64,000 nt of DNA, from contig JAGOAU010000013.1 in assembly GCA_017983755.1 (NCBI GenBank), positions 20,647 to 84,646 on the forward strand. The letters are read 5' to 3'. This document shows, piece after piece, positions 1 to 62,707 of the stretch. Position 1 is the stretch's first letter, and each line of letters opens with the position of its first letter. The position numbers and the translations under genes were made by a program. Under the pieces are notes generated by a model, which was given only the letters and a program-made list of their open reading frames with translations, ran no database searches and had not been told where the DNA came from. This DNA is from Azonexus sp. Its GTDB lineage: Bacteria > Pseudomonadota > Gammaproteobacteria > Burkholderiales > Rhodocyclaceae.

Positions 1-2783
1 TTTGCCCGGATCTTCTGCGGCAGCGTCTTGATCAGCTGCACCAGCTTTTCCTTGAGCAGCCCCGGCACCAGCCACTCCATGCGCAGCACCGGAATCTGGT
101 TCAACTGCGCCAGCGGCAGGGTCAGCGTCACGCCGTCGCGCGGCGAGCCCGGCTCGAAATGGTAGGTCAGCGTGTAATCGACGCCGCCGACCTTGAGGTG
201 ATGCGGGAAGGCCTCGGTCGTGACGCCCGCCGCCGAGTGGCGCATCAGGTCGTCTTTCGACAGGTAGAGCAGCTTCGGCGACTCGCGTTCGGCCTCCTTG
301 CGCCAGTGGTCGAAGGTGGCGCCGTTGTGGATGCCTTCGGGTATCAGGTGGTCGTAGAAGGCGAAGATCAGTTCGTCATCGACCAGCACGTCCTGCCGGC
401 GCTGTTTGTGTTCGAGGTGCTCGATCTCGCGGATCAGCTTCTGGTTGTGCTGGAAGAACGGCCAGCGCCTGGCGAAGGCGTCGTCGATTTCCTCGCCGAC
501 CAGGCCCTGGCGGATGAAGATCTCGCGCGACTCGGCCGGGGCCAGCGGGCCGTAATGAATGCGCCGCTTGGGGTTGATGACTACGCCGTAGAGCGTCGTC
601 CGCTCCCAGCCGGCGACCTGCATCGCCTTCTTTTCCCAGTGCGCATCGAAGTACTGGCGCTTGATCAGGTGAGCGCCCGCTTTTTCGATCCAGCCATCTT
701 CGATGCGGGCGACGCAGCGCCCGAACAGCCGCGTCGTCTCGGTGATCTCGGCCGCCATGATCCACTTGCCGGCCTTTTTCTGCAGCGGCGACGACGGGTG
801 GATCAGGTAGCGGATGCCGCGGGCCCCGAGGTAGTAGCCGGATTCGTCGGACTTGCAGCCGATGTTGCCGAGCAGGCCGGAGAGCAGCGCCATGTGGATG
901 GCGTCGTAGGTGCCGGGAATCTCGCTTTCCTTCCACCCGAGTTCGGTCACCATCGCATGCAGCTGGCCATGTACCTCGCGCCACTCGCGCAGGCGCAGGT
1001 AGGAGAGAAAATGGGCGTGGCAGGTGTCGACCAGCGATTTGTTCGATTTCTTGTGGTCGACCGCGGCCTTGAACCAGTTCCACAATTTGACCCAGCCGAG
1101 GAATTCCGACTTTTCATCGGCGAACAGCTTGTGCTTCTCGTCCGCCGCCTGCTGACGCTCCTGCGGCCGCTCGCGCGGGTCCTGCGTCGACAGCCCGGCG
1201 GCGATGACCAGTACCTCCTTGAGGCAGCCGAGATCGCGTGCCGCGACCAGCATGCGGCCGATGCGCGGATCGAGCGGCAGCCTGGCCAGCGCCTCGCCGA
1301 CGCGGGTCAGGCGATTGTCGTCATCGAGCGCGCCGAGTTCCTGCAGCAGCGCGTAGCCGTCGGCGACCGCCTTGGCCGGCGGCGGTTCGATGAAGGGAAA
1401 ACTCTCGACGTCGGTTAGCTTCAGCGACTTCATGCGCAGGATGACGCCGGCCAGCGACGAGCGGAGGATTTCCGGATCGGTAAACGGTGCCCGGGCGTTG
1501 AAATCGTCCTCGTCGTACAGGCGGATGCAGACCCCGGCCGCCACCCGGCCGCAACGTCCGGCCCGCTGCCGGGCCGCCGCCTGCGAGATCTTCTCGATCT
1601 GCAGCTGCTCGACCTTGTTGCGGTAGGAATAGCGCTTGACGCGGGCCAGGCCGGTGTCGATCACGTAGCGGATGCCTGGCACGGTGAGCGAGGTTTCGGC
1701 GACGTTGGTGGCGAGCACGATGCGCCGCTGGCTGCCCGAGGGCTTGAAAATGCGGTCCTGTTCGCCGGCCGAGAGGCGCGAGAACAGCGGCAGGATTTCC
1801 GGCGCGTGGGCGCTGCTCAAACCGGGTCTTGCCAGCGCGTGCTTGCGCAAGGCTTCCGCCGCCTCGCGGATTTCGCGTTCGCCGGGCAGGAAGACAAGGA
1901 TATCGCCGCTGCCCAGCCGCGCCAGTTCGTCGGCGGCATCGACGATGGCGTCGTAGAGATCGCGCTCGTCGTCGTCCTTGTCGAGATCGGAAACCGGCCG
2001 GTAACGCACGTCGACCGGATAGAGGCGGCCCGAGACCTCGATCACCGGGGCACCCGTGAAATGCTGCGAAAAGCGCTCGGCGTCGATGGTCGCCGAGGTG
2101 ATGATCAGCTTCAGGTCCGGGCGCCTGGGCAGCAACTGCTTCAGGTAGCCGAGCAGGAAGTCGATGTTCAGGCTGCGCTCGTGCGCCTCGTCGATGATGA
2201 TCGTGTCGTAGGCGCCGAGATACGGGTCGGACTGCGACTCGGCGAGCAGGATGCCGTCGGTCATCAGCTTGACCCAGCTGTCTGCGGTCGACTTGTCGTG
2301 GAAGCGGATTTTGACGCCGACGCCGGCGCCGACCTGCGTTTTCAGTTCCTGCGCCAGCCGCGTCGCCACCGAGCGCGCCGCCAGCCGGCGCGGCTGGGTA
2401 TGGCCGATCAGTCCGCTGCCGCCGCGCCCGAGTTCGAGGCAGATTTTCGGCAACTGCGTCGTCTTGCCGGAGCCGGTCTCGCCGCAGACGATCACCACCT
2501 GATGCTTGCGGATCAGTTCGGCGATTTCAGCGCGCCGCTCGTTGACCGGCAGGTCGGCCTGGAAGTCCGGCCTGGGCAGGCTGGACTGACGCTTTTCCAG
2601 GGCGGCGCGCGATTTCTCCAGCAGCGCCGAGAAGTCGGCCTGCAGTTTTTCGCGTTTTTCACCCGTCGACCGCAACAGATTGCGCTGCATGCCGCGCAAG
2701 CGGCCGTAATCGGCCGTCAGGCACGGCAGGCGTTCGCTGGATTCCGCGTGCGTCCGTTTTTGCGCAGTGTTTTTTGCCATCAT
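1..2783 (-). CDS. hrpA: ATP-dependent RNA helicase HrpA (3' part cut by window start)
   Basis: DEAH-box RNA helicase, in Escherichia coli linked to ribosome-collision rescue and mRNA processing. The reverse-strand frame is open from 2783 to the window edge with no stop, so only about 927 N-terminal residues are visible of a protein that is usually near 1300. Seen: Walker A GETGSGKT at about residues 101-108, DEAH box in the stretch IIIDEAHERSLN, motif SAT in ITSATIDAERF, and motif VI QRAGRCGR. Two consecutive ATG codons (2783 and 2780) can start it; no strong ribosome binding site separates them. It faces away from the SRPBCC gene, with 184 bases between. A nucleotide uptake-like motif lies in its N-terminal coding part. 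Identity is secure; HrpB is less likely because of the N-terminal extension and motif spacing. Confidence 0.95.
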   Translation of the reverse strand, partial: MMAKNTAQKRTHAESSERLPCLTADYGRLRGMQRNLLRSTGEKREKLQADFSALLEKSRAALEKRQSSLPRPDFQADLPVNERRAEIAELIRKHQVVIVCGETGSGKTTQLPKICLELGRGGSGLIGHTQPRRLAARSVATRLAQELKTQVGAGVGVKIRFHDKSTADSWVKLMTDGILLAESQSDPYLGAYDTIIIDEAHERSLNIDFLLGYLKQLLPRRPDLKLIITSATIDAERFSQHFTGAPVIEVSGRLYPVDVRYRPVSDLDKDDDERDLYDAIVDAADELARLGSGDILVFLPGEREIREAAEALRKHALARPGLSSAHAPEILPLFSRLSAGEQDRIFKPSGSQRRIVLATNVAETSLTVPGIRYVIDTGLARVKRYSYRNKVEQLQIEKISQAAARQRAGRCGRVAAGVCIRLYDEDDFNARAPFTDPEILRSSLAGVILRMKSLKLTDVESFPFIEPPPAKAVADGYALLQELGALDDDNRLTRVGEALARLPLDPRIGRMLVAARDLGCLKEVLVIAAGLSTQDPRERPQERQQAADEKHKLFADEKSEFLGWVKLWNWFKAAVDHKKSNKSLVDTCHAHFLSYLRLREWREVHGQLHAMVTELGWKESEIPGTYDAIHMALLSGLLGNIGCKSDESGYYLGARGIRYLIHPSSPLQKKAGKWIMAAEITETTRLFGRCVARIEDGWIEKAGAHLIKRQYFDAHWEKKAMQVAGWERTTLYGVVINPKRRIHYGPLAPAESREIFIRQGLVGEEIDDAFARRWPFFQHNQKLIREIEHLEHKQRRQDVLVDDELIFAFYDHLIPEGIHNGATFDHWRKEAERESPKLLYLSKDDLMRHSAAGVTTEAFPHHLKVGGVDYTLTYHFEPGSPRDGVTLTLPLAQLNQIPVLRMEWLVPGLLKEKLVQLIKTLPQKIRA
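1036..1065 (-). repeat. USS-like motif, variant core CGCGGTCGAC
   Basis: One mismatch from the core TGCGGTCGAC. On the reverse strand the core is followed by AGAAAT and then AAAT at +16 to +19, the spacing seen in exact copies. Lies inside hrpA. Confidence 0.5.
2283..2312 (+). repeat. USS-like motif, exact core
   Basis: Core TGCGGTCGAC at 2283-2292, inside hrpA on its opposite strand. The far A/T tract is ATTTT at +16 to +20; the near tract is absent. Confidence 0.6.
2645..2674 (-). repeat. USS-like motif, exact core with both A tracts
   Basis: Reverse-strand core at 2665-2674, followed by AAAAA at +6 to +10 and AAAAA at +15 to +19. One of the best copies. It encodes LRSTGEKREK in hrpA. Confidence 0.8.
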
Positions 2784-2967
2784 TCCGAGTACGCCACCGC
2801 AAATGCCGGGCGGCAGCCTGCTCTTTGTTCCTGCAGAAGTCGAATCGCGAATTGTGCAGCAAATCCCAGGCGCGTTCCACGTGAACAAGCGCGAAAACGA
2901 TCTGCCAGGGCGGTGACGGAGGGTAATTGGCTATACTGCTCGCGTGCCCAACTTGAGAGGATTGACC

Positions 2968-4108: not shown

Positions 4109-4504
4109 ATGAAAAACATCCGCTACGAGGGCCGTTTTCCCCTGCTGCTGGCGGCGCTCTTTTTTACCTTCCTCGGGGCGTCGACCGCAGCCGGCAAGCT
4201 GCCGCCGATGCTGCTCGGCCTCTATGCTGCGGCCAGTCTGGTCGCCTTCGCCGCCTACGCACTGGACAAGTCGGCGGCTCGTGGCGGCCGCCGGCGAACG
4301 CCGGAAAAAACCTTGCACCTGCTGGCGCTGCTCGGCGGCTGGCCGGGCGCGCTGGTGGCACAGAACCGCCTGCGCCACAAGTCGAGCAAGACGCCGTTTC
4401 TTGCCGTTTTCTGGGCCACCGTCCTGCTTAACTGCATGGCACTCGGGCTGTATCTGACGCCGGCCGGTGCCAGGGCGCTGCGTGCCGCACTCGGCATTGC
4501 CTGA
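4109..4504 (+). CDS. DUF1294 family membrane protein
   Basis: A 131-residue membrane protein with hydrophobic segments near residues 8-26, 32-51 and 95-115. The family signature is complete: a DKSAA-like motif (LDKSAARGG), RTPEKTLHLLALLGGWPGA and NRLRHKSSKTPF. Many relatives carry an N-terminal cold-shock domain; here it is replaced by membrane segments. Function of the domain is not known. The ATG directly abuts the trhA stop, which points to translational coupling. The gene converges on the small hypothetical gene ending at 4509. Confidence 0.88.
   Translation: MKNIRYEGRFPLLLAALFFTFLGASTAAGKLPPMLLGLYAAASLVAFAAYALDKSAARGGRRRTPEKTLHLLALLGGWPGALVAQNRLRHKSSKTPFLAVFWATVLLNCMALGLYLTPAGARALRAALGIA
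4160..4189 (-). repeat. USS-like motif, exact core
   Basis: Reverse-strand core at 4180-4189; far tract TAAAAAA at +14 to +20, near tract missing. Lies inside the DUF1294 gene, opposite strand. Confidence 0.65.
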
Positions 4505-5251: not shown

Positions 5252-5265
5252 GCGGGTCGGCCGCC

Positions 5266-5295
5266 AATTTTGCCGCCTATTCGTCGTCGACCGCA
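5266..5295 (-). repeat. USS-like motif, exact core, at a convergent gene junction
   Basis: Reverse-strand core at 5286-5295 covers the last codons of the NafY-like gene. The near tract AATA overlaps the stop and the far tract AAAATT at +15 to +20 lies in the intergenic gap. Confidence 0.7.
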
Positions 5296-7452: not shown

Positions 7453-9108
7453 ATGTCGGATAGCCAACAAGCGCGCGACGAAACCATCGTCCGCGCCTAC
7501 CATGCCCGCACCAAGCACCGTTTCGACGCCTATGCCGAAGGCCCCGGCCAGCTCGACTGGGACGCCCAGCCGGCAGCCTTCCGTCGCTATGCCGGCGCGC
7601 CGCAGCTCGAATTGCCGCTCTCCGCCGACCGCTTCGAGCGCTGCTACGGTCGACTGCCGGAAAAGCCCGAAAATCAGGTTGCCGCCGATCTCGACAGCCT
7701 CGGCGCCCTGCTCGAACTGTCTTTCGGCATCTCGGCCTGGAAAAGCTGGGGGCCAAGCCGCTGGGCGCTGCGCTGCAACCCGTCCTCCGGCAACCTGCAC
7801 CCGGTCGAGGCCTACGTCCTGGCCGCCAGCCTGCCCGGCGTGGCGGACGGCCTGCATCACTATGAACCGGAAAATCATGTCCTCGAAGGCCGCGCCCTGA
7901 CGGCGTCCACCGCTGGCCAGCCGTGGCTCGCCATCGGCCTCTCCAGCATCATGTGGCGCGAGGCGTGGAAATACGGCGAGCGCGCCTTCCGCTACTGCCA
8001 GCTCGACATCGGCCACGCGCTGGGCAGCCTCGCCTATGCCGCCGCGCTGCTCGGCTGGCGCGTCGAGCCGCTGGCCGTGCCCGGCGACACGCTGGCGCAT
8101 TGCCTCGGCCTCGATCGCCCGGAAGATTTTTCGCCCTCGCGCTATGCCTTTACCGAAAACGAGGAGCCGGAGATCCTGCTTGCCGTCTACGCACCCGGCG
8201 TGGGTGCGCCGCCGGCCAACGCTGCGGTGCACGACTGGCTGGCCGGCGCCCGTTGGTGCGGCCAGCCGAGCCGCATCGACCCGGCGCCCGGCTACCGCTG
8301 GCCGGCGGTCGACCAGGCCGCCGCCGCCAGCCGCCTGCTGCGGTCGACGCCCGAAAAAGGCCAATTTCCAGCCCTGCCACCGCTGGCGCCGCACGCGAAC
8401 GCGGCCGGCGCCGCGCAGTTAATCCGCCAGCGGCGCAGTGCCCAGCGCTTCGACCCGAAATCCACCCTCGACAAGGCCGCCTTCTACCGCATCCTCGATG
8501 CCACGCTGCCGCGGCCCGGCGCTCCCTTTTCGGCTCAGGAGGCGGCACCGGCCATCCACCTGCTGCTTTTTGTGCTGCGCGTGGACGGCCTGCCGAGCGG
8601 CCTCTACCTGCTGCCGCGTACGCCGCTGGCGGCGGCCGAACTGCCCGCCGTGCTCGGCCGCGCCGACGAACGCTTCGCCGGCCGTTGCGCGGTGGCCGAT
8701 GGCGATCCCGACTGCCCGCGCCATCTCGGCCTGGTCATGCTCGCCGCACTCGGCCTTCAGGAAATGCAGCGCCTCGCCCGCGCCCTTTCCTGTCATCAGG
8801 ACATCGCCGCGACCAGCGCCTTCTCGCTCGGCATGCTCGGCGACTTCGCGGGCGCCGACGGCTACGGCTATCGCTGCTTGCTGCACGAAGCCGGGCTCGT
8901 CGGCCAGGTGCTCTACCTCGAAGCCGAGGCCGCCGGCGTGCGCGGCACCGGCATCGGCTGCTTCTTCGACGACCCGGTGCACCAGGCCTTCGGCATCGCC
9001 GACCCGCGCTGGCAGAGCGTCTATCACTTCACCGTCGGCACACCGATCAGCGACGCCCGCATCGAGACCGCTCCGCCCTATCCACAACGCCAACAGGAAA
9101 ACCCATGA
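7453..9108 (+). CDS. SagB/ThcOx-type nitroreductase, two tandem domains
   Basis: A 551-residue flavoprotein with two nitroreductase-fold halves. The first half (about 60-300) has the SagB pattern WGPSRWALRCNPSSGNLHP, where residues contact FMN, then GLHHYEPENHVLEGRAL and IMWREAWKYGERAFRYCQLD. The second half (about 315-535) repeats it in weaker form: LIRQRRSAQRFDPKSTLDK, GLYLLPRTPL and CLLHEAGLVGQVLYLEAEAA. Relatives oxidise azoline rings in ribosomal peptide toxins, but stand-alone two-domain members in Proteobacteria have no known substrate. No YcaO or precursor peptide gene is near. The start at 7453 follows the usual N-terminus; the frame is open upstream into the LysR gene. Confidence 0.85.
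   Translation: MSDSQQARDETIVRAYHARTKHRFDAYAEGPGQLDWDAQPAAFRRYAGAPQLELPLSADRFERCYGRLPEKPENQVAADLDSLGALLELSFGISAWKSWGPSRWALRCNPSSGNLHPVEAYVLAASLPGVADGLHHYEPENHVLEGRALTASTAGQPWLAIGLSSIMWREAWKYGERAFRYCQLDIGHALGSLAYAAALLGWRVEPLAVPGDTLAHCLGLDRPEDFSPSRYAFTENEEPEILLAVYAPGVGAPPANAAVHDWLAGARWCGQPSRIDPAPGYRWPAVDQAAAASRLLRSTPEKGQFPALPPLAPHANAAGAAQLIRQRRSAQRFDPKSTLDKAAFYRILDATLPRPGAPFSAQEAAPAIHLLLFVLRVDGLPSGLYLLPRTPLAAAELPAVLGRADERFAGRCAVADGDPDCPRHLGLVMLAALGLQEMQRLARALSCHQDIAATSAFSLGMLGDFAGADGYGYRCLLHEAGLVGQVLYLEAEAAGVRGTGIGCFFDDPVHQAFGIADPRWQSVYHFTVGTPISDARIETAPPYPQRQQENP
7645..7674 (+). repeat. USS-like motif, variant core TACGGTCGAC
   Basis: One mismatch in the core, but both tracts are in register: AAAA at +7 to +10 and AAAAT at +16 to +20. 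Inside the nitroreductase gene. Confidence 0.6.
8339..8368 (+). repeat. USS-like motif, exact core with both tracts
   Basis: Core 8339-8348, AAAAA at +6 to +10 and AATTT at +15 to +19. Encodes LRSTPEKG at the linker between the two nitroreductase domains. Confidence 0.8.
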
Positions 9109-12787: not shown

Positions 12788-13972
12788 GTGTCGGCGCGCG
12801 ACGTTGCCAGCCTCGGCCAGGTATTCACGCCACCCAATGTGGTGGCCTTCATGCTCGACCTGTGCCGCAACAATGGCCGCGTGCTGGAACCGTCGGCCGG
12901 CGACGGGGCCTTCTTCGCGACCCTGCGCGAGCGCCAGGCCGATTGTGTCGGGATCGAGGTCGACCCGCGCGTCGCCCCAGAGGGCGCCGAAATCCGCGAT
13001 TTCTTCGATTACCCGCTGAGCGAGCAATTCGACACCATCGTCGGCAACCCGCCTTACGTGCGCTTTCAGGATGTTGCGGTCGACACCCGGAAAAGGCTGA
13101 AATCCGATCTGTTCGACGGGCGCAGCAACCTCTTCCTGTTCTTTATCGAGAAGTGCATCCGCCACCTGAAACCGGGCGGCGAGCTGGTCTTCATCGTGCC
13201 GCGCGAGTTCATCAAGCTGACCGCCGCCAAGAAGCTCAATGCCTGGCTCTACGAGCAGGGCAGCATCACGCATTTCTTCGAGACCGGCGACACCCGCGTC
13301 TTCGGCGAACACACGCCGAACTGCGCCATCTTCCGCTTCGAAAAGGGACGGATGGATCGCCACATGGCCGACGGGCGACGTTTTGTCGAGGTGGACGGCC
13401 AACTGATGTTCCTGCGCGACGATTACAGCGTGCGCTTCGCCGATGTGTTCACGGTCAAGGTGGGGGCGGTGTCCGGCGCCGACACCATCTACACGCACCC
13501 CAAGGGCAACATGGAATTCGTCTGCTCGAAGACCGTGGAAACCGGCGAAACGCGCCGCATGCTCTACGGCATCAAGCATCCGCACCTGGAAAAGCACAAG
13601 GCCGAACTGCTCGCCCGCCGTGTCCGCAGTTTCGACGAAAGCAACTGGTGGCAGTGGGGGCGCGCCTTCCCGATCAACCTGCATCCGCGCATCTACGTCA
13701 ATGGCCGCACGCGCAAGCGCGAGCCCTTCTTCCTGCACGACTGCAACAGCTTCGACGGCGCCGTGCTGGCGCTGTTCACTAAGAACCGTCGCATGCCGCG
13801 TCGCGAGCTGATCGAATGCACGCTGATGCTGAACCGGGAAGTCGATTGGCAGGAACTCGGCTTCGTCTGCGACGGCCGCTTCCTGTTCACCCAGCGCAGC
13901 CTGCAGACCTGCGTGCTGCCCGACAAGTTTTCCCGATTCCTCCCGCCCGAAGCGAAAAAGGACGCCGCATGA
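12788..13972 (+). CDS. Orphan N6-adenine DNA methyltransferase (Eco57I/TaqI-like)
   Basis: A 394-residue SAM-dependent methyltransferase of the gamma order: motif [16 protein letters not shown], motif [13 protein letters not shown] (about residues 31-42), an acidic EVD pair, and the catalytic motif IV NPPY in [10 protein letters not shown] (about 80). The C-terminal half should read the DNA target. There is no restriction endonuclease gene next to it, so it may be a solitary methylase or a conserved housekeeping one; rRNA or protein substrates cannot be excluded. Start is GTG at 12788. It sits between DUF924 and pyrF and overlaps pyrF by four bases. Confidence 0.85.
13075..13104 (+). repeat. 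USS-like motif, exact core with both tracts
   Basis: Core 13075-13084, AAAA at +7 to +10 and AAAT at +16 to +19. Inside the methyltransferase gene, encoding [10 protein letters not shown]. Confidence 0.8.
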
Positions 13973-15684: not shown

Positions 15685-16494
15685 GTGCGCCTGTGCGGCG
15701 CGCTGGGACTGCTGCTCGCCAGCGCCGCCGGCCTGGCGCTGCCGCAGCATTCACCGGTGCCGGGCGGCGTCGCCGTCATCGACCTTAGCGCGGCGGGCAC
15801 GCCGGCGCCGACCGCGCGGTGGGGCGAGCAGCCGCTCGCCGTACTGCGCGACAACGGGCGCTGGGTGGCGCTGCTCGGTATCCCGCTCGACACTTTGCCG
15901 GGCCCGCTGGAAATCGACGTTTTCAGCGGGTCGACCGCAACCGCCCGTAGCGTGGCGGTCCAGGTCAAGAACTACCCGGAACAGCGCCTGACGATCAAGG
16001 ACAAGCGCAAGGTCGAGCCCAACGCGGACGATCTGGCGCGCATCGAGCGCGAACGGGAGATAACCGAAGCGATCAAGCGCCGCTTCAGCCCGCCAGCGCC
16101 GGATGCCGACTTCGCACTGCCGGCCGCCGGCCCGCTGTCGTCGCGCTTCGGCCTGCGCCGCATCTTCAACGGCCAGCCGCGCAACCCGCATGCCGGGCTC
16201 GACGTCGCCGTCGGCACCGGCGCGCCGGTCAAGGCACCGGCCGCCGGCATCGTGGCCAACACCGGCGATTACTTCTTCAACGGCAACACCGTGTTCATCG
16301 ACCACGGCCAAGGTCTGATCACCGCCTACATGCACCTGTCGCGCATCGACGTCCGTTCCGGTCAACCGGTCAAAAAGGGCGAAATCCTCGGCGCCGTCGG
16401 CGCCACCGGCCGGGTGACCGGCCCGCACCTGCACTGGGCCGTCATCCTCAACAATACGCCGGTCGATCCCGAGCTGTTCCTGGCGCGGCCCTAG
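15685..16494 (+). CDS. M23 family metallopeptidase (LytM-like), secreted
   Basis: Zinc endopeptidase that cuts peptidoglycan cross-links or helps activate amidases in the periplasm. The C-terminal LytM domain is complete: HAGLDVAV with the first zinc ligands near residue 169 and HLHWAV with the last near 248. An N-terminal signal sequence (RLCGALGLLLASAAGLA) and a spacer domain precede it. I start at GTG 15685, five bases after the ypfJ stop, because the signal peptide begins there; a GTG at 15649 within ypfJ is the alternative. It converges with the cytochrome c gene with two bases between stops. Confidence 0.88.
   Translation: MRLCGALGLLLASAAGLALPQHSPVPGGVAVIDLSAAGTPAPTARWGEQPLAVLRDNGRWVALLGIPLDTLPGPLEIDVFSGSTATARSVAVQVKNYPEQRLTIKDKRKVEPNADDLARIEREREITEAIKRRFSPPAPDADFALPAAGPLSSRFGLRRIFNGQPRNPHAGLDVAVGTGAPVKAPAAGIVANTGDYFFNGNTVFIDHGQGLITAYMHLSRIDVRSGQPVKKGEILGAVGATGRVTGPHLHWAVILNNTPVDPELFLARP
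15910..15939 (-). repeat. USS-like motif, exact core with both tracts
   Basis: Reverse-strand core 15930-15939, then AAAA at +7 to +10 and ATTT at +16 to +19. Opposite strand of the M23 gene. Confidence 0.78.
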
Positions 16495-26431: not shown

Positions 26432-26461
26432 TGCGGTCGACCTGAAAAAGGGGCCGAAAAC
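26432..26461 (+). repeat. USS-like motif, exact core, intergenic
   Basis: Core 26432-26441, AAAAA at +4 to +8 and AAAA at +16 to +19. It lies between two converging genes just beyond their terminator, so no coding pressure explains it. Confidence 0.8.
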
Positions 26462-26470
26462 TGCTGTTCG

Positions 26471-34715: not shown

Positions 34716-34752
34716 CGCTACGGGCGTCTTTGATAATTCATAATTATCAAAG
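34709..34752 (+). promoter_or_regulatory. bioB promoter overlapped by a 25-bp palindrome (candidate operator)
   Basis: TTGACA at 34709-34714, a 17-base spacer and GATAAT at 34732-34737 form a near-consensus promoter. The palindrome at 34728-34752 has eleven-base arms, CTTTGATAATT and AATTATCAAAG, around CAT, covering the -10 and probable start site. GCGTCTTTGAT occurs at 34724-34734 and again 33 bases later at 34757-34767. A repressor site for biotin control is inferred; it does not match the E. coli BirA operator. Confidence 0.75.
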
Positions 34753-34798
34753 CGCTGCGTCTTTGATTCTTCTCGATTTTTCTCAAGCAAGGCCTCCC

Positions 34799-36660: not shown

Positions 36661-37326
36661 CTAATCCGGCTTCTGCCTGAAGAACTTGAGCGGCTTGGCG
36701 GCAGGAAACTGCGGCACCGGAATTGCCTTGCGCTGCCGTTCGCGCACGCGCCAGCCGAGCAGGAAGGCGAGGGCAACCGAGTAGGCCAGCGGCCACAGCA
36801 GCGCCGTCGCCTTGACCAGCCAGAAATAATGGACGCAGGCGAGAATGCTGATCAGGTAGACGTTGCGGTGCAGTTCCTGCCACTTGCGCCCGCCCAGTTT
36901 GCGGATCGCCCACTGGTTCGACGTTGCGGCCAGCGGAATCAGCAGCAGAAATGCAGCGAAGCCGACGGTGACGAAGGGGCGCTTGAAAATGTCCTTGGCG
37001 ATTTCGTCGACCGCAAAAGAATGGTCGAAGCCGATGAAGGACAGGAAATGGAGCGTCGCATAAAAGAAGGTGAACAGGCCGAGCATGCGCCGCAGACGGA
37101 GCAGCCAGTGCCATTCTGTGTAGTGGCGAAGCGGCGTGATGCAGAGCGTCAGCAGCAGGAAATTGATGGTCCAGGTGCCGGTCCAGCGCTGGACGAACTC
37201 GACCGGGTTGGGGCCGAAGTCGCCGGTGTAGGCGGCCCACAACAGTCGTCCCAGCGGCAGCAGGGCGACAAGGAAAAGGGCGGCTTTGAGCTGGGCGATC
37301 GGCGGGGTGGTATTTTGCGTGTTCAT
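36661..37326 (-). CDS. msrQ: Heme-binding membrane subunit MsrQ
   Basis: Membrane partner that feeds electrons from the quinone pool or flavin reductase to periplasmic MsrP; 221 residues with six hydrophobic segments. Heme-ligand histidines lie in LCITPLRHYTEWHW, FYATLHFLSFIGFDHSF and LACVHYFWLVKA, as in the ferric reductase-like domain. It begins three bases after msrP. It converges with bioC. Confidence 0.95.
   Translation of the reverse strand: MNTQNTTPPIAQLKAALFLVALLPLGRLLWAAYTGDFGPNPVEFVQRWTGTWTINFLLLTLCITPLRHYTEWHWLLRLRRMLGLFTFFYATLHFLSFIGFDHSFAVDEIAKDIFKRPFVTVGFAAFLLLIPLAATSNQWAIRKLGGRKWQELHRNVYLISILACVHYFWLVKATALLWPLAYSVALAFLLGWRVRERQRKAIPVPQFPAAKPLKFFRQKPD
36986..37015 (-). repeat. 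USS-like motif, exact core
   Basis: Reverse-strand core 37006-37015; AAAT at +2 to +5 is early, ATTTT at +16 to +20 is in register. Inside msrQ, encoding FAVDEIAKDIF. Confidence 0.68.
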
Positions 37327-42221: not shown

Positions 42222-42250
42222 GGTCTTGTCTCCCTCCGTTATGGTTTTTG

Positions 42251-42280
42251 GATTTTGCCCAAAAATTATAGTCGACCGCA
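42251..42280 (-). repeat. USS-like motif, exact core with both tracts, at a gene end
   Basis: Reverse-strand core 42271-42280 covers the last codons of the nucleotidase gene. A/T runs at +1 to +10 and AAAAT at +15 to +19, the latter in the gap before slmA, where a promoter may also lie. Confidence 0.75.
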
Positions 42281-45669: not shown

Positions 45670-47472
<1,803 letters not shown>

Positions 47473-48437: not shown

Positions 48438-49286
48438 TCAAGTCATCAACCCGAGATAGCTGCGGGTAAGTTGCGGCCCCCAAAACAGGGCGATGATGCC
48501 TGCGGCGGCGAGATAAGGGCCGAACGGAATGGGAGTATTCCGCCCGTGCCGCGTGGCGACAATCAGGCTGATGCCGACGACGGCTCCGACTACTGAAGAG
48601 AGCAGGATGATCGTCGGCAGCATCTGCCAGCCGAGCCAGGCGCCCAGCGCAGCGAGCAGCTTGAAATCGCCGAAACCCATGCCCTCCTTGCCGGTCGCCA
48701 GCTTGAACAGCCAGAAAACCGACCACAGGGTCAGATAACCTGTCATTGCGCCGATCACGGCCGAAAAAAGATCGACATAGGTGCCGGCAAGATTGAAGGC
48801 GAGTCCAAGCCAGAGCAGCGGCAGTGTGATCGAGTCGGGGAGCAACTGGGTGTCGAAATCGATCCCCGTCAGAGCGATCAGCGCCCAGATCAGCAGCAAG
48901 GCGCCGGCGCCGTGAAGTGTTGGCCCGAAATGCCAGATTGCGTAGGCGGAAAGCAGCCCGGTGATCGCCTCGACCAGCGGGTAGCGTGGGGATATTGGCG
49001 CCGCGCAATTCGAACACCGGCCACGCAAGAGCAGGTAGCTGAAGATCGGAATATTTTCGAGTGCAGAGATTTGATGGCCGCAGGACGGGCAGCGGGAGCG
49101 TGGGCGGGCCAGCGTCAGGGCGGCTGCGGTCGACGGTGTTTCACCTCGTAAATCCGCACATTGCGCATGCCAGTCCTGCTCCATCATCCTGGGCAGACGA
49201 TGGATTACGACGTTAAGAAAACTGCCGACACACAAGCCAAGCAGCCCGGCAACGGCAGCCAGGCCGCCCAGTGACTCGACAGGCAT
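48438..49286 (-). CDS. pilD: Prepilin peptidase / N-methyltransferase PilD
   Basis: Inner-membrane aspartic protease that trims and methylates type IV pilins and pseudopilins; 282 residues, about eight membrane segments. The zinc tetracysteine is CPSCGHQ plus CSNCAAPI in the N-terminal cytosolic loop; catalytic Asp residues lie in TGIDFDTQLLPD and GMGFGDFKLLAALG. It shares TGATG with the end of pilC. The usual coaE downstream is absent here; the next gene is FmdB. Confidence 0.96.
   Translation of the reverse strand: MPVESLGGLAAVAGLLGLCVGSFLNVVIHRLPRMMEQDWHAQCADLRGETPSTAAALTLARPRSRCPSCGHQISALENIPIFSYLLLRGRCSNCAAPISPRYPLVEAITGLLSAYAIWHFGPTLHGAGALLLIWALIALTGIDFDTQLLPDSITLPLLWLGLAFNLAGTYVDLFSAVIGAMTGYLTLWSVFWLFKLATGKEGMGFGDFKLLAALGAWLGWQMLPTIILLSSVVGAVVGISLIVATRHGRNTPIPFGPYLAAAGIIALFWGPQLTRSYLGLMT
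49125..49154 (+). repeat. USS-like motif, exact core with both tracts
   Basis: Core 49125-49134, TTT at +5 to +7 and TAAAT at +15 to +19. Opposite strand of pilD. Confidence 0.72.
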
Positions 49287-50512
49287 CAGACCACGGCGCC
49301 CAGTTTGAAGATTGGAAGGTACATGGCGACGACCATGCCGCCGATCAAGGTGCCAAGCACCACCATGATGATCGGTTCCATCAGGCTGGACATCGCCTCG
49401 ACGGCGTCATCGACTTCCTGTTCAAAGAAATCGGCAACCTTGGAAAGCATCGAGTCAAGCGCGCCGGACTCTTCGCCGATGGCGACCATCTGCGTGACCA
49501 TGTTAGGGAACAGATTGACATTGGTCATGGCGTTCGTGAGGCTTGTGCCGGTAGCGACTTCGCCTTGGATCTGCTTGGTGGCCGCTTTATAGACATAGTT
49601 GCCGGCTGCGCCGCCGACCGAGTCCAGGGATTCGACCAGCGGCACGCCGGCGGCGAACATGGTGGACAGTGTCCGTGACCAGCGCGCAATGACCGCCTTG
49701 CGGATGATGTCGCCAAAGATGGGTAGCCGGAGCAGCATTCTGTCCATGGCCATTTGCACTTTCTCCGACCGCTTCCAGGCTTCGAAGAAGGCGTAGAGCC
49801 CGCCGAAGATGATGCCGAAAATCGCCCACCAGTAAGCAACGAAGAAATCCGAGATGGCGATCACCAGCAGGGTCGGTGCCGGAAGGTCGGCGCCGAAGCT
49901 CTTGAAGACGTCCTTGAACGCCGGAATGACGAAAATCATGATGACCGCGGTGATGATGAAAGCAACCACAATGACTGCGATCGGGTAGAACAGTGCGGAC
50001 TTGATCTTGCTCTTGATGGCTAGAATCTTTTCCTTGTAGGTCGCCAGGCGTTCGAGCAGCGTGTCGAGAATGCCGGCCTGTTCGCCGGCTGCTACGAGAT
50101 TGCAGTAGAGCGCATCGAAATATAGCGGATATTTCCGGAAGGCCTGGGAGAGCGAACTGCCGGTTTCGACGTCGGCCTTGATGTCCAGCAGAAGTTTGGC
50201 GACTGCAGGATTGGCATGGCCGCGGCCGACGATGTCGAACGCCTGCAACAGGGGAACACCGGATTTCATCATCGTGGCGAGCTGGCGTGTGAACAACGAA
50301 ATGTCCTTTTCGCTGACCTTGCCACCGACCTTGAAGCGGGCTTTTTTTACCTTGGCGTTGAAAATGCCTTGGCGGCGCAAGCTGGTCTGAACCACCGCCT
50401 CGCTGGCTGCGCGCATTTCCCCGCGGACCCCTTTGCCATCCCGATTCTTTCCCTCCCAGAGATAGGTGTACTCCTTGACCACAAGAATCCTGGGTTTTGC
50501 GGCAGTAGCCAT
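49286..50512 (-). CDS. pilC: Type IV pilus inner-membrane platform protein PilC
   Basis: Platform protein on which the pilus is assembled; 408 residues. Two GspF/PilC repeats are seen: FTRQLATMMKSGVPLLQAFD near residue 78 and ARWSRTLSTMFAAGVPLVES near 280, each followed by helices, with membrane segments near 180-205, 230-250 and 380-400. N-terminal VKEYTYLWEGKNRDGKGVRG is usual. pilB lies 16 bases upstream; pilD follows. In transformable bacteria the pilus machinery also takes up DNA. Confidence 0.96.
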   Translation of the reverse strand: MATAAKPRILVVKEYTYLWEGKNRDGKGVRGEMRAASEAVVQTSLRRQGIFNAKVKKARFKVGGKVSEKDISLFTRQLATMMKSGVPLLQAFDIVGRGHANPAVAKLLLDIKADVETGSSLSQAFRKYPLYFDALYCNLVAAGEQAGILDTLLERLATYKEKILAIKSKIKSALFYPIAVIVVAFIITAVIMIFVIPAFKDVFKSFGADLPAPTLLVIAISDFFVAYWWAIFGIIFGGLYAFFEAWKRSEKVQMAMDRMLLRLPIFGDIIRKAVIARWSRTLSTMFAAGVPLVESLDSVGGAAGNYVYKAATKQIQGEVATGTSLTNAMTNVNLFPNMVTQMVAIGEESGALDSMLSKVADFFEQEVDDAVEAMSSLMEPIIMVVLGTLIGGMVVAMYLPIFKLGAVV

Positions 50513-50528: not shown

Positions 50529-52244
50529 TTATACGTTCGTTGTGCTCAGAACCTCGTCGAGCGAGGTCAGGCCTTGTTTTACCTTCAGCAAACCGGATTC
50601 GCGAAGATTTTTCACTCCCTCGCGTGCTGCTTGTTCGGCTAGGTCCATTTCCCCTGCACCGCTCATGATCAGTCGCTGTATCGCTTCGGTTATCGGCATG
50701 ACCTGATAGATGCCGACTCGTCCCTTGTAGCCGGTGCCCTTGCAGCGCTCGCAACTGCCGGGGCCGTATAGAGTCCACGAGCCATCAAGGTCGGCCTCGG
50801 TGAAGCCGGCGTCCAGCAGCGCCTGGTTCGGTACGTCGATCGGCTTCTTGCAGGTGCACAGCCGACGCGCCAGGCGCTGGGCCGTGATTAGCAGGACGCT
50901 GGAGGCGATATTGAAGGTCGGTACTCCCATGTTCATCAGGCGGGTCAGCGTCGCCGGTGCGTCGTTGGTGTGCAGCGTAGACATGACCATATGGCCGGTT
51001 TGGGCAGCCTTGATGGCGATTTCCGCTGTTTCCAGGTCGCGAATTTCGCCGACCATGATGATGTCCGGATCCTGACGCAGGAACGCCCTGAGTGCCGTCG
51101 CGAAGGTCAGCCCCACCTTGTCGTCGACATTGACCTGATTGATGCCGGCCAGGTTGATTTCCGCCGGGTCTTCGGCGGTGGAGATATTGACGCCATCCTT
51201 GTTCAGGATATTTAGGCATGTGTATAGCGAAACCGTCTTGCCGGAACCCGTCGGTCCGGTGACCAGCACCATGCCGTAGGGGCGACTGATCGCTTCGAGC
51301 AACACGGCCTTCTGCTCGGGCTCATAGCCGAGGGCTTCGATCCCGAGCGTTGCCGAGGTCGGGTCGAGAATACGCAATACGATCTTCTCGCCCTGCAATG
51401 TCGGCAAGGTGCTGACCCGGAAATCGATGGCCCGGCTTTTCGAGAGCACCAGTTTCATCCGCCCATCCTGCGGTATCCGCTTTTCGGCGATATTCAGACG
51501 GGATATGACCTTGATCCGCGAGGCGATTTTCTCCTTGATCGCCAGTGGTGGCGTGGCGACTTCACGCAGGACGCCATCGACTCGGACACGGATACGGTAG
51601 TACTTCTCGTAGGGTTCGAAATGGATGTCGGATGCGCCGTCGTTGATCGCGTCGAGCAGCATCTTCTGGATGAACTTGACGACTGGCGCATCGTCGATTT
51701 CCTGCGATGCCGCGTCGTCTGCCTTGGCGGCTGATTCATCATCGAGGAAGTCGAGATTGATATCATCGACCGTCAGGCTCTTAAGTGTCTCTTCGGCAGA
51801 TTCGGAATGTTTGGCAACAAGTGGTACCAGCTTCTGATGTTCGACAACAATGGGGTCGACACCGAGACCGGTCTGAAAACGAATCTCGTCCAGAGCACGC
51901 AGGTTGGTCGGGTCGGCAATGGCTACGGAAAGCCGATTGCCCCGCTTGTTCAGTGGAATGACCCGGTGGGCGGCCATTAGCTTGCGATCAATGGCATTTC
52001 CGGGAATATGGGCTTCGTCATAGACGGCCAAATCAAGCAGCGGGTAGCCGAAAGTGTCGGCGACAAAGCGGGCGAGATCCAGCGATGAAATCCTCTGGCT
52101 GGCAATGATCTGTTCGATCAGCGAGCGTTTCTCGTGATTGGCCTGAACAAGCAACTGCTCTGCCTCGGCTTCCTTGAGCCTTCCCGCCTGGACCAGGGCG
52201 CGGGCGAGTCCGCTGAGGGGGCTTGCATGAGGTGTAGCAGACAT
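50529..52244 (-). CDS. pilB: Type IV pilus assembly ATPase PilB
   Basis: Hexameric ATPase that powers pilus extension; 571 residues. An N-terminal T2SSE domain (about 1-160) precedes the motor: Walker A GPTGSGKTVSLY, Asp box and Walker B DPDIIMVGEIRDLETAEI, His box STLHTNDAPATLTRL, and the zinc tetracysteine CTCKK and CERCKGTGYKGR. A short acidic linker near 150-175 (DDINLDFLDDESAAK) is variable. It starts the reverse-strand pilBCD operon. Confidence 0.97.
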   Translation of the reverse strand: MSATPHASPLSGLARALVQAGRLKEAEAEQLLVQANHEKRSLIEQIIASQRISSLDLARFVADTFGYPLLDLAVYDEAHIPGNAIDRKLMAAHRVIPLNKRGNRLSVAIADPTNLRALDEIRFQTGLGVDPIVVEHQKLVPLVAKHSESAEETLKSLTVDDINLDFLDDESAAKADDAASQEIDDAPVVKFIQKMLLDAINDGASDIHFEPYEKYYRIRVRVDGVLREVATPPLAIKEKIASRIKVISRLNIAEKRIPQDGRMKLVLSKSRAIDFRVSTLPTLQGEKIVLRILDPTSATLGIEALGYEPEQKAVLLEAISRPYGMVLVTGPTGSGKTVSLYTCLNILNKDGVNISTAEDPAEINLAGINQVNVDDKVGLTFATALRAFLRQDPDIIMVGEIRDLETAEIAIKAAQTGHMVMSTLHTNDAPATLTRLMNMGVPTFNIASSVLLITAQRLARRLCTCKKPIDVPNQALLDAGFTEADLDGSWTLYGPGSCERCKGTGYKGRVGIYQVMPITEAIQRLIMSGAGEMDLAEQAAREGVKNLRESGLLKVKQGLTSLDEVLSTTNV

Positions 52245-54467: not shown

Positions 54468-55823
54468 ATGCTCGATAACCTGACCAATCGCCTTGCACGC
54501 GTCATGAAGACGCTGAAGGGCGAGGCTCGCCTGACCGAATCCAATATTGCCGACGCCCTGCGCGAGGTCCGCATGGCCTTGCTCGAGGCCGACGTTGCGC
54601 TACCGGTGATCAAGGAGTTCATCGCAGCGGTCAAGGAAAAGGCGGTGGGCGAGGAGGTCATCGGTTCGCTGAGCCCGGGCCAGGCGCTGGTTGGTGTCGT
54701 GCATCGCGAACTGGCGCGGATCATGGGCAATGCCCACGAAGGGATCAGCTTCAACACGCAGCCTCCAGCCATCGTACTGATGGCCGGCCTGCAGGGGGCG
54801 GGCAAGACCACCACCGTCGGCAAACTGGGCAAGTTCCTCAAGGAAAATCACAAGAAGAAGGTGCTGGTCGTCTCCTGTGACGTGTATCGCCCGGCCGCAA
54901 TCGAGCAGCTTAAGTCGGTCGCCGGGCAGGCCGGCATCGACTTCTTCCCGTCGACCGCGGGTGAGAAGCCCGAGGCGATTGCCGCGGCGGCGGTCGACTG
55001 GGCGAAGCGGCACTATCACGATGTGCTGCTGGTCGATACGGCCGGTCGTCTTGCGGTCGACGAAGAAATGATGGCCGAAATCAAGCGCCTGCATGCGGCG
55101 ATCAATCCCATCGAAACGCTCTTCGTGGTCGACGCGATGCTCGGTCAGGACGCGGTGAACACCGCCAGGGCCTTCAACGAAGCCTTGCCGCTGACTGGCG
55201 TCGTGCTGACCAAGCTCGATGGCGATGCGCGCGGCGGGGCGGCGCTTTCGGTGCGCCACATTACCGGCAAGCCGATCAAGTTCGCCGGCGTCGGCGAAAA
55301 GCTGACTGGCCTGGAGGCTTTCCATCCGGAGCGGATGGCGTCGCGGATTCTCGGCATGGGTGACGTGCTGTCGCTGATCGAGGAAGCCAAGAAGGGGCTG
55401 GATGAGGAAAAGGCGGTAGCCTTCGCCAAGAAGCTGAAATCCGGCAAAGGCTTCGATCTAAATGATTTCAAGGAACAGATCGCCCAGATGCGCAACATGG
55501 GCGGCCTGTCGGCGCTGATGGACAAGATGCCGGCGCAGATCGCCCAGGCGGCGGGGCAACTGCCGGCCGGGGCGGAGAACAAGATGGTCGGCCGCGTCGA
55601 AGGCATCATCAATTCGATGACCCCGGCCGAGCGGGCCAAGCCGGAAATCATCAAGGCCAGCCGCAAGCGCCGCATCGCGATGGGCGCCGGCGTGCAGGTT
55701 CAGGAAGTGAATCGGCTGCTCAACCAGTTCGAGCAGTCGCAGAAGATGATGAAGATGATGACCAAGGGCGGCATGGGCAAGCTGATGCGCGGTATGAAGG
55801 GGATGTTGCCCGGCATGCGCTGA
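54468..55823 (+). CDS. ffh: Signal recognition particle protein Ffh
   Basis: GTPase that with 4.5S RNA delivers inner-membrane proteins to FtsY; 451 residues. The N domain, G domain (GLQGAGKTTTVGKL near 105; DTAGRLAVDEEMM; TKLDGDARGG) and the Met-rich M domain (GGLSALMDKMPAQIA; KMMKMMTKGGMGKLMRGM) are all present. GTG/ATG choice is simple: ATG 54468. Divergent from the CcsA-like gene. Confidence 0.97.
   Translation: MLDNLTNRLARVMKTLKGEARLTESNIADALREVRMALLEADVALPVIKEFIAAVKEKAVGEEVIGSLSPGQALVGVVHRELARIMGNAHEGISFNTQPPAIVLMAGLQGAGKTTTVGKLGKFLKENHKKKVLVVSCDVYRPAAIEQLKSVAGQAGIDFFPSTAGEKPEAIAAAAVDWAKRHYHDVLLVDTAGRLAVDEEMMAEIKRLHAAINPIETLFVVDAMLGQDAVNTARAFNEALPLTGVVLTKLDGDARGGAALSVRHITGKPIKFAGVGEKLTGLEAFHPERMASRILGMGDVLSLIEEAKKGLDEEKAVAFAKKLKSGKGFDLNDFKEQIAQMRNMGGLSALMDKMPAQIAQAAGQLPAGAENKMVGRVEGIINSMTPAERAKPEIIKASRKRRIAMGAGVQVQEVNRLLNQFEQSQKMMKMMTKGGMGKLMRGMKGMLPGMR
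55052..55081 (+). repeat. USS-like motif, exact core with both tracts
   Basis: Core 55052-55061, AAAT at +5 to +8 and AAAT at +17 to +20. Falls in the G domain of ffh, encoding LAVDEEMMAEIK. Confidence 0.7.
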
Positions 55824-55856: not shown

Positions 55857-55886
55857 TGCGGTCGACCGTCAGAAAAGGGCAAAAAT
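55857..55886 (+). repeat. USS-like motif, exact core with both tracts, intergenic
   Basis: Core 55857-55866, AGAAAA at +5 to +10 and AAAAAT at +15 to +20. It lies between the converging ffh and lytic transglycosylase genes, touching only the final stop codon of the latter. Confidence 0.82.
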
Positions 55887-56497
55887 CAGCGGTTGGCTTG
55901 GGCCAGGCGCGGTGGCTTCTGGTAGCCCCACTGGTTCTGCCAGGCGGCGCGTACCATGTTGGGATATTCCGGCCGGCCGAGACTGCCGTTGTAGCGGCCG
56001 AGGGCGCGGAAGAGGTCGCCCTTCTCGATATCCAGGTAGTGGCGCAGGATGGTGCAGCCGTAGCGCAGATTGGTGCGCAGGTCGAAAAGGCTGTCGTCCG
56101 GGCGGCCGATGAGTTTGACCCAGAAGGGCATGACCTGCATGTAGCCGCGGGCGCCGGCCGACGACACGGCATATTTGCGGAACCCGGACTCGACCTGCAT
56201 CAGTCCCAGCACCAGTTGCGGGTCGAGGCCCGCGCGCGTTGCTTCGTAATGAACGCTGCGCAGCAGGTCGAGGCGGTACTCCCGGTTGGGAATCCGTTTT
56301 TCCAGGCGCGGCGACATCTCGGCCAGCCACTCGACTGCGTCCATCGGGTTGTTGAACGAACTGGATGGCGGGCGCGCGTCCGATACCGCCTTGTGCAAAG
56401 CGGCCTGGACGCTCGCCGAGAGCGGCTCGTAAATCTGGGCGCCGGCGAATGCGCCGGAGGCGCCCAGCAGGAGCAGGATGGCAATCAGCCGGCGCAC
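55886..56497 (-). CDS. Lytic transglycosylase, SLT domain
   Basis: A 203-residue periplasmic enzyme that cleaves peptidoglycan glycan strands. A signal peptide ([14 protein letters not shown]) precedes the SLT domain: catalytic Glu in [18 protein letters not shown], then [19 protein letters not shown] and [14 protein letters not shown]. The short size suits Slt-like small enzymes. It overlaps proS by 13 bases, so both are likely on one transcript. It converges with ffh. Confidence 0.92.
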
Positions 56498-60911: not shown

Positions 60912-60941
60912 TTGACAGTATTCCGAAAAGTCGACTAGAAT
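60912..60941 (+). promoter_or_regulatory. sigma70 promoter of rplM-rpsI
   Basis: TTGACA at 60912-60917, an 18-base spacer and TAGAAT at 60936-60941, 47 bases before the rplM ATG. Confidence 0.75.
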
Positions 60942-60988
60942 CCGCGCCTTTCTCCAATCCGCGCCCAATTTTTCAGGACGGCACACAC

Positions 60989-61417: not shown

Positions 61418-61426
61418 GGGGTCATC

Positions 61427-61819: not shown

Positions 61820-61838
61820 TTCGCTTTCCCGACTGCAA

Positions 61839-61866
61839 AAAGCCGCCATCTTGGCGGCTTTTTTGT
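61839..61866 (+). terminator. Rho-independent terminator after rpsI
   Basis: AAAGCCGCC pairs with GGCGGCTTT over a five-base loop, then a T run. Confidence 0.87.
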
Positions 61867-61972
61867 TTTCTCGGTGCCGCGTATTATCAAAGGCAGTTCC
61901 GAAAAGCGGTTGCGATCAAACTTCTTATTGTGGCGGGTGCCTGATACCCGTTCCGAGTGAAATGACGGGGTT

Positions 61973-62707
61973 ATGCCAACTCCTGCTGTTACGCTGAGAG
62001 TCAGAAAATTCAGGCGCCGCTTCGGGATCACGGCGCCGCGGGTTGTTGTTCGGACGCATTTGTCCTGGCGCTGGTATGCGTTGGGAGGTGTCCTGTTTGC
62101 GCTCGTCGCTGTTGCGATTGCCTGGTCAATATTGCAGCGTGGCGGTGCAGGGGAAACCGGGCGCGAACTGGAGTCCTTGCGTCGTCAGGTTCGCGAACTT
62201 GACGAGGAGGTGTTGAAGTTGCGGTCGACCGCTGGTACTGAGCAAAATGCGGTGCAGATGGAGCGCTCGACCCAGCAGCAGTTGCTGAATCGCGTCAAGA
62301 TTCTGGAATCCGAGAACGCTGCGTTGAGGGAGGATATGCTCCTTTTTGAGCGTTTGATTCCTGCCACGGGTGATGAGCCTGTAATTCGCCTGGAGAGTTT
62401 TCGGGCGGCTCCTGATGGGCCGCAGCGTTTCCGCTACCGTGTCCTGCTGGCGTTTCAGTCGGCCAAGCAGTTGCCAGAGTTTCGGGGGCGGTTGCAAATT
62501 TTGGTCATTTACTCGCTGGGGGGTAGGCAACAGGAGTTGTTGATTCCGGCGAAGCGTGAGACTGCGGGTGAATTTCAGGTAGAAGTGCGACATTTTTTGC
62601 GCAAAGAGGGGGGGTTCGAGTTGCCAGAGGGGGCGGTGTTGCGCTCGGTGGAAGCCCGCGTATTTCAGGGTGATACACTAAAAGCAAAGCGTCTGGCCCA
62701 ATTGTAG
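61973..62707 (+). CDS. DUF6776 family membrane protein with coiled coil
   Basis: A 244-residue protein: a basic N-terminal tail (RVRKFRRRFG), one membrane helix (about 31-52, WRWYALGGVLFALVAVAIAW), a coiled coil (about 58-120, SLRRQVRELDEEVLKLRST and LNRVKILESENAALREDMLL) and a beta-rich periplasmic domain (FRYRVLLAFQSAKQLPEFRG, LQILVIYSLGGRQQELLI). The order DUF6776, bactofilin, erpA is common in Betaproteobacteria, suggesting a scaffold or envelope role linked to the bactofilin. Function is not known. Confidence 0.85.
   Translation: MPTPAVTLRVRKFRRRFGITAPRVVVRTHLSWRWYALGGVLFALVAVAIAWSILQRGGAGETGRELESLRRQVRELDEEVLKLRSTAGTEQNAVQMERSTQQQLLNRVKILESENAALREDMLLFERLIPATGDEPVIRLESFRAAPDGPQRFRYRVLLAFQSAKQLPEFRGRLQILVIYSLGGRQQELLIPAKRETAGEFQVEVRHFLRKEGGFELPEGAVLRSVEARVFQGDTLKAKRLAQL
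62220..62249 (+). repeat. USS-like motif, exact core, far tract only
   Basis: Core 62220-62229, AAAAT at +15 to +19; near tract reduced to TA. Inside the coiled-coil coding region of the DUF6776 gene, encoding LRSTAGTE. Confidence 0.65.

Follow-up and report, generated by a model that had tools for sequence, protein, structure and literature searches.

A candidate DNA uptake sequence with several dialects in the Azonexus/Dechloromonas group

We analyzed a 64,000-nucleotide stretch of an Azonexus sp. genome (contig JAGOAU010000013.1, positions 20,647 to 84,646; hereafter the window), in which a 10-bp core, TGCGGTCGAC, followed by two A/T tracts recurs on both strands. This element is very probably a DNA uptake sequence, that is, a self-label spread over the genome, which a cell-surface receptor belonging to the type IV pilus/competence machinery would read when free DNA is taken up. 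A first-pass annotation had proposed this interpretation from the sequence, and our computational follow-up supports it by a genome-wide excess of the motif, phased A/T tracts, balanced orientation, confinement to relatives, and a comF-like gene and pilB-, pilC- and pilD-type genes in the window. The genome belongs to the Azonexus/Dechloromonas group (NCBI: Azonexaceae, Rhodocyclales); a scan of named genomes with the IspH-type sequence that neighbors a pilin cluster found the closest ones among Dechloromonas and Azonexus, and this result and the NCBI taxonomy confirm the Rhodocyclales placement assumed in that annotation. It is likely that the motif represents a third uptake-sequence family, evolved independently in the environmental Rhodocyclales of the Azonexus/Dechloromonas group, with a layout convergent on that of the Pasteurellaceae uptake signal sequence (USS), at least three dialects within one genus, and several gains or losses.

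The window contains 17 exact copies of TGCGGTCGAC, nine forward and eight reverse, against 0.30 expected (standard deviation 0.59; the largest number in 100 dinucleotide shuffles was 3). The recount returned the same 17 copies and the same orientations as the first-pass annotation, far above chance; the core coordinates given there agree with ours except for one forward start, 46315, which should read 46314. With the first core base taken as base 1 and an A/T run of at least three bases required, the second tract (bases 24-32) was found in 17/17 copies vs 21.5% of random window positions, and the first tract (bases 14-21) in 13/17 copies vs 19.5%. An A/T run after every core, with another in most copies, had been described before, and so had the preference for T or C ahead of the core, which was present in 16/17 copies. 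The 17 uptake-sequence-like elements are listed below.

2283..2314, + strand, element with core 2283-2292 and tracts; first tract weak
2643..2674, - strand, element with core 2665-2674
4158..4189, - strand, element with core 4180-4189; first tract weak
5264..5295, - strand, element with core 5286-5295, within a dinitrogenase-cofactor-type gene (PF16844, PF02579)
8339..8370, + strand, element with core 8339-8348
13075..13106, + strand, element with core 13075-13084, in an open reading frame (ORF) without Pfam match
15908..15939, - strand, element with core 15930-15939, in an ORF without Pfam match
26432..26463, + strand, element with core 26432-26441, called intergenic
27403..27434, - strand, element with core 27425-27434, within a pseudouridine synthase gene (PF00849, PF01479)
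36116..36147, - strand, element with core 36138-36147
36984..37015, - strand, element with core 37006-37015, within a ferric-reductase-like gene (PF01794); first tract weak
42249..42280, - strand, element with core 42271-42280, at the end of a HAD-type hydrolase gene (PF00702)
46314..46345, + strand, element with core 46314-46323, within an aspartyl-tRNA-synthetase-type gene (PF00152, PF02938)
49125..49156, + strand, element with core 49125-49134, within the pilD-type (prepilin peptidase) gene
55052..55083, + strand, element with core 55052-55061, within the ffh/SRP54 gene (PF00448)
55857..55888, + strand, element with core 55857-55866, called intergenic
62220..62251, + strand, element with core 62220-62229, within a DUF6776 gene (PF20567); first tract weak

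The excess extends to the whole genome (2.515 Mb, 43 contigs, 74% complete), where exact-pattern counting gave 586 copies of TGCGGTCGAC (295 forward and 291 reverse) and 13 copies (5+8) of the reversed pattern used as control. In a profile sample of 461 kb, composed of 397 kb of the genome plus the window and corresponding to 18% of the genome, TGCGGTCGAC ranked first by z among all 10-mers seen at least eight times under an order-4 Markov model; the 109 copies observed are far above the Markov expectation of 6.9. Alignment of these 109 sites, with the first T of the core at position 0, revealed a G-Y lead (G at -2 in 91/109 sites, T or C at -1 in 97/109), C favored at position 12, an A-rich tract at 14-18, a G/C-rich stretch at 21-23, and a second tract at 25-29 with A/T at 95-97% at positions 26-28, followed by C/G at 30 and a purine at 31. 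The two tracts are spaced by ∼11 bp, about one helical turn, and the profile demonstrates that the A/T-tract enrichment persists outside the window. Conservation drops off beyond about bases -4 to +31. The excess over the Markov expectation amounted to 102 perfect and 61 single-mismatch copies; both tracts were present in 77 perfect and 38 single-mismatch copies. Among the latter, 34 of the 38 were altered at core base 1, 2 or 8, and CGGTC-R-AC is therefore near invariant.

Across 76 genomes of the genus, the number of TGCGGTCGAC copies per genome ranged from 18 to 1256. Azonexus sp. R2A61 (G052) carried 1256 copies in 3.7 Mb and Dechloromonas hortensis MA-1 (G011) carried 489; outside the genus, an Accumulibacter genome had 37 and a Thauera genome 47, and the count was at most 70 in each of 373 family genomes. 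In G002, a genome poor in TGCGGTCGAC, the over-represented 10-mer was CACGGTCGAC, present 886 times in that genome and 943 times in G055. We also performed a tract-first search, in which any 8-mer followed by A/T at both distances was counted and the core was not given. CGGTCGAC or CGGTCAAC ranked first in 6/9 of the motif-bearing genomes in the sample; in the remaining three (G002, G049 and G015), CGGTCRAC ranked second, behind the one-base shift ACGGTCGA or ACGGTCAA. The same search detected nothing similar in four other sampled genomes (G001, G019 and G035, all low in the motif, and G007, intermediate). Logos, drawn for the relatives from 100-200 kb stretches per genome, read TG-CGGTCGAC in the window's own genome and G052 (dialect I), CA-CGGTCGAC in G002, YA-CGGTCAAC continuing CGGAAAA in G049 and G015 alike, and TR-CGGTCAAC in G072, and showed a CG or TG lead in G008. 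We concluded that the motif is a set of dialects, in which a near-invariant CGGTCRAC and both tracts are preceded by lineage-specific leading bases.

When the core was counted together with both tracts, 40 of the 76 genus genomes were rich (322-1099 sites, or 98-263 per Mb), nine were intermediate (53-145) and 27 had fewer than 50; control counts did not exceed 18 in any of them. Outside the genus, the 373 family genomes had at most 20 sites and 393 order genomes at most 17, with higher controls in the latter (seven genomes are common to the family and order sets). The motif is thus not equally present in non-related genomes, which stay at background. The earlier idea of one uptake motif for this lineage has to be amended: among the genomes searched, the motif is a group of dialects confined to a single genus, and it is scarce or absent in 36/76 genus genomes.

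Two members of another genus (g32) of the same family, G106 and G164, displayed a slight excess, with 20 and 10 sites vs 2 and 4 for the controls; some of these sites are well formed, and they may represent a weak remnant or transfer. In the motif-poor genome G001, two complete dialect I elements lie 2.9 kb apart (G001:C1:3088370 and 3091257), adjoining an outer-membrane efflux gene and an HlyD-type gene; this pair is perhaps a fragment acquired from a motif-rich relative.

Next, 26 sites of six rich genomes, at loci around an IspH-type gene, were compared with homologous DNA; the poor or remnant loci were those of four low genomes and one intermediate genome. The motif was found at 41/82 aligned places in other rich loci vs 0/61 in poor or remnant loci, in counts that include reciprocal pairs and non-independent cases. 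Identity at the aligned places was similar, 79.0% for rich and 77.5% for poor or remnant loci. The leading dinucleotide was different at 31 of the 41 motif-bearing places. At one homologous site, for example, G052 has TG-CGGTCGAC, G055 has CA- and both G039 and G020 have TA-, the rest of the element being nearly the same. Since homologous places carry the motif in another dialect, copies mostly arise in place by substitution, following the dialect of the genome. These comparisons also bear on the explanation that the motif is a small mobile repeat multiplied by copying, the chance of which we put close to nil. A strong consensus can mark young repeats, according to the available text of PMC1626085, but the flanks of homologous sites align across species at about 70-95% identity (some alignments are gapped), the motif differences are mostly in-place substitutions, and conservation fades outside the -4 to +31 interval.

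Gene-relative positions were assigned by a simple heuristic gene-calling script. By this script, 28/109 sites are intergenic, although ∼10% of the sequence was called non-coding; the remaining 81 sites are located within genes in both orientations and in all three frames of each, i.e., in six gene-relative frames. Ten site-bearing ORFs of the window were scanned against Pfam; two had no match and eight matched families that were all different (SRP54, class II tRNA synthetase, prepilin peptidase, pseudouridine synthase, HAD hydrolase, ferric reductase type, dinitrogenase-cofactor type, and DUF6776). Restriction of the motif to one reading frame or protein family, which would speak against an uptake sequence, is ruled out by the use of all six frames, the intergenic sites and the unrelated families.

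Among 298 sites in nine genomes, 15 neighboring pairs were found at distances of 60 bp or less, and 15/15 were oppositely oriented. Nine pairs were at offset 4 with overlapping cores, five at 33-35 bp with shared tracts, and one at 42 bp. In the offset-4 pairs, the GTCGAC palindrome common to the overlapping cores eases pairing, and the 33-35 bp pairs share the same two tracts because of the element geometry. One inverted pair (stretch L045) folds strongly (-37.8 kcal/mol, z -9.9), as might be expected if the copies were transcription terminators or other RNA elements. This explanation is extremely unlikely: two other pairs fold less markedly (z -1.5 and -2.5), close pairs account for only 15 cases among the 298 sites, and 81/109 sites are within called genes. 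Terminator use is moreover described as a by-product of uptake sequences in the available text of PMC1852404.

The balanced orientation cited in the first-pass annotation against Chi-like or KOPS-like (FtsK-orienting polar sequence) signals was borne out genome-wide (295 vs 291). A polar signal of the Chi/KOPS type was rejected, as strong replication polarity was not seen (153:122 over nine genomes). Regional clustering of sites was likewise absent across 20 stretches (mean 4.6, variance 5.74). The lack of both strong replichore polarity and clustering counts against the proposal that the motif is a genome-wide binding site of an intracellular nucleoid, segregation or repair protein, the site of which would consist of a core plus phased A-tracts. 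Phased A/T tracts are generally known to cause DNA bending and are found at sites of nucleoid proteins, and the slight strand excess of 153 vs 122 is compatible with such a protein. We nevertheless consider it unlikely, as the replacement of one dialect by another at the same coding position is easier to reconcile with an optional uptake trait than with a housekeeping factor, and so are the near-absence of the motif in 27/76 genus genomes and the low counts in nine more. A nucleoid or segregation site is the least excluded among the rival explanations, all of which fit the data less well than an uptake sequence.

A 20.6-kb stretch of the window's own genome (G000:C1:131919-152495) has no exact dialect I copy. 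Its G+C content is 0.56 vs 0.636 in the sample, it encodes phage integrase, DUF3987 and HNH genes, and it is probably an acquired element. Depletion of the motif in acquired DNA, for which this one stretch was the example, is suggestive only.

The sequence GTCRAC within the core presumably fits a GTYRAC-type restriction-modification site, and GTCGAC in dialects I and II is palindromic. The motif could accordingly mark a restriction-modification or orphan methylase habit, like HIP1 of cyanobacteria, which we regard as very unlikely. GTCGAC shows no excess outside the motif: 782 were seen and 730 expected in the window's own genome (588 not preceded by CG), 268 were seen vs 289 expected in G002, and 128 vs 179 in G049. 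Furthermore, the full element is asymmetric and ∼32 bp long, and other dialects contain the non-palindromic GTCAAC.

Uptake signals are known only from Neisseriaceae and Pasteurellaceae according to the available text of PMC12616744, and in the available text of terminator surveys covering uptake motifs (PMC1852404, 343 genomes; PMC13020248) those two families are the only ones mentioned. Our literature search, which had subscription papers and preprints outside its scope, found nothing joining Dechloromonas or Rhodocyclaceae with uptake sequences; the 10-mer TGCGGTCGAC itself occurs in 15 papers, which by their titles are on unrelated subjects. For H. influenzae, sequencing of DNA recovered after uptake has been reported (PMC7811141). 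As characterized in the accessible part of PMC1626085, known uptake sequences have a strong consensus, ∼1 copy per kb, no orientation bias, a non-coding preference, somewhat regular spacing and inverted close pairs; perfect cores far outnumber singly mismatched cores; and the USS has two A/T segments at helical spacing and dialects by subclade. The Azonexus motif has several of these traits (no orientation bias, intergenic enrichment, inverted close pairs, the two A/T segments at helical spacing and dialects), at a lower density. It also displays the large excess, the lineage dialects and the presence at homologous sites that characterize uptake sequences in general.

The resemblance to the Pasteurellaceae USS is closest in layout. 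The dialect I core has TGCGGT in common with the USS and is followed by two A/T segments at a spacing of roughly one helical turn; further points of likeness in the available text of PMC1626085 and PMC12616744 are the large number of copies, the lack of orientation bias, intergenic enrichment, close inverted pairs and subclade dialects. The USS core, however, is AAGTGCGGT or ACAAGCGGT with an inner GCGG, whereas the constant part in Azonexus is CGGTCRAC; dialects of the Azonexus group other than dialect I, such as CACGGTCGAC and TACGGTCAAC, read CACGGTC or TACGGTC and lack GCGG. The center of the first tract lies ∼11 bp after the T of GCGGT here vs ∼4.5 bp in H. influenzae, and the tract-to-tract distance is ∼11 bp vs 12 in the USS (the former USS value is our own reading of the position numbers in the accessible part of PMC1626085). 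The density here is 3-4 times under one per kb, and the host belongs to Rhodocyclales rather than Gammaproteobacteria. The match to the Pasteurellaceae signal drawn in the first-pass annotation thus stands for the layout and the shared TGCGGT and does not extend to sequence identity, as other dialects have no GCGG and the first tract is several bp further away. With the Neisseriaceae DNA uptake sequence (DUS), the motif shares dialects around a constant inner core, type IV pilus genes, a Betaproteobacteria host and inverted pairs; the DUS differs in its inner core CTG and in having no flanking A/T motifs, as against another core and two tracts here (PMC12616744 and PMC1626085, in the text available). 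HIP1 of cyanobacteria is likewise a short sequence iterated very often, but the available text of PMC4390886 describes it as an 8-bp palindrome with linked methylases, unlike the asymmetric, ∼32-bp element studied here. The motif is neither USS nor DUS because its core is that of neither, and on the best reading it would work like a USS.

We propose the following mechanism. A surface-exposed pilin or secretin-linked protein would bind the bases around CGGTCRAC, and the two downstream A/T tracts, spaced by one helical turn, may help the stiff double helix to bend or open for entry. The pilus would then pull the DNA and ComEC would import one strand, so that fragments with the motif enter and recombine more often than others. 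Recombination would thereby spread alleles in which the motif is present by chance, and copies would accumulate. Lineages differ in the two bases ahead of the core and in one core base, which creates dialects, and after a loss of specificity the copies would be expected to decay.

Several observations weigh against an uptake function. The literature search, with the scope given above, found no report of competence for Azonexus or Dechloromonas. The G-rich strand is slightly favored (153 vs 122 among 275 sites in nine genomes), and the spacing of sites is only weakly more even than random (coefficient of variation 0.844 vs 0.969 simulated, p = 0.06). In raw counts, and unlike in known systems, single-mismatch copies (30 variants pooled; 202 with 141 expected) outnumber perfect ones (109 with 6.9 expected), although perfect copies lead in the excess over expectation and among copies with both tracts. 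The density, from one site per 4.3 kb in the window's own genome to one per 2.9 kb in G052, is under the ∼1 per kb of known systems. ComEC was found in 71/76 genus genomes irrespective of whether these are rich or poor in the motif; no match was obtained in five incomplete genomes, among them the 74%-complete genome of the window. Finally, no pilin group was common to the rich genomes and missing elsewhere in a comparison of seven rich (the window's own included), five poor and one intermediate genome, for which pilins were partly fetched and ComP was not a query.

As for the uptake machinery, the comF and pilB/C/D homologs reported in the first-pass annotation were recovered by Pfam as a comF-like gene and pilB-, pilC- and pilD-type genes.

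48438..49286, - strand, pilD-type prepilin peptidase (PF06750, PF01478), part of the proposed machinery
49286..50512, - strand, pilC-type platform protein (PF00482), which Pfam alone cannot separate from type II secretion
50529..52244, - strand, pilB-type ATPase (PF00437, PF05157), which Pfam alone cannot separate from type II secretion
34005..34790, - strand, comF-like gene, phosphoribosyltransferase (PF00156), with a double zinc ribbon (PF18912) under its cut-off

The occurrence of ComEC in rich and poor genomes suggests a transport pathway shared throughout the genus, with specificity that must lie elsewhere; presence of this machinery was therefore rejected as a discriminator of rich from poor genomes (71/76 have ComEC). 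A ComEC tree of 70 rows was built, one for each genome in which ComEC was found except G016 (excluded for a match that was too short), with frames chosen by alignment and a midpoint root; some branches are long. The label "rich" needs 13 changes on this tree (shuffled mean 23), of which at least six are forced by well supported branches. The label is clustered yet requires at least six supported changes, and the trait was therefore gained or lost several times. Two genomes of the genus, one motif-rich and one poor, have comEC interrupted by ∼33-kb inserts at about the same point, after profile residue ∼28 (G036:C33:109608-143311 and G056:C1:2218693-2251157). In the parts examined, the G056 insert has a large serine recombinase beside the comEC stump and AAA_13, DUF5131 and IrrE-type genes, and the G036 insert has CHAT and Mrr/ResIII genes. 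The insertion point resembles a hot spot of integration, and insertion there would abolish DNA uptake.

In the receptor search, PF07963 matches were listed for 12 genomes, 20 stretches were fetched and 88 pilin-like proteins were grouped. Three pilin groups were seen in two rich genomes only among the fetched pilins, a pattern of little weight. A cluster of pilin-like genes, for which PF07963 matches were computed, adjoins the IspH-type gene; from sequence resemblance we take its members and neighbor to be PilE, FimT, PilV, PilW and IspH. A search for FimT-like proteins over the genus gave some match in 72/76 genomes, many of them N-terminal only. The FimT-like group was present in 7/7 rich genomes (own included) and in 4/6 poor or intermediate ones, and its C-termini gave no lead.

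If the motif is indeed an uptake sequence of a third family, the physical demands of drawing DNA across the outer membrane would dictate its layout, the tracts being a convergent solution, and pairs of dialects would allow the receptor to be found by coevolution. The genus would then offer a natural experiment on the origin, switching and loss of uptake specificity; as it includes motif-rich, intermediate and nearly motif-free genomes, comparison among them can test gain, dialect change and decay. Azonexus sp. R2A61 and Dechloromonas hortensis MA-1 would then be predicted to take up tagged DNA selectively, which might aid the engineering of environmental bacteria.

Two other kinds of repeat were encountered in the relatives. 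In Azonexus hydrophilus (G035, C1:1-100000), GTTTCAATCC and ATCCACGCCT each occur 36 times in 100 kb and resemble clustered regularly interspaced short palindromic repeats (CRISPR-like). In G002, AAGCCCCGGA, CCCCGGAAGC and others occur 21-22 times in 200 kb, perhaps as a tandem repeat.

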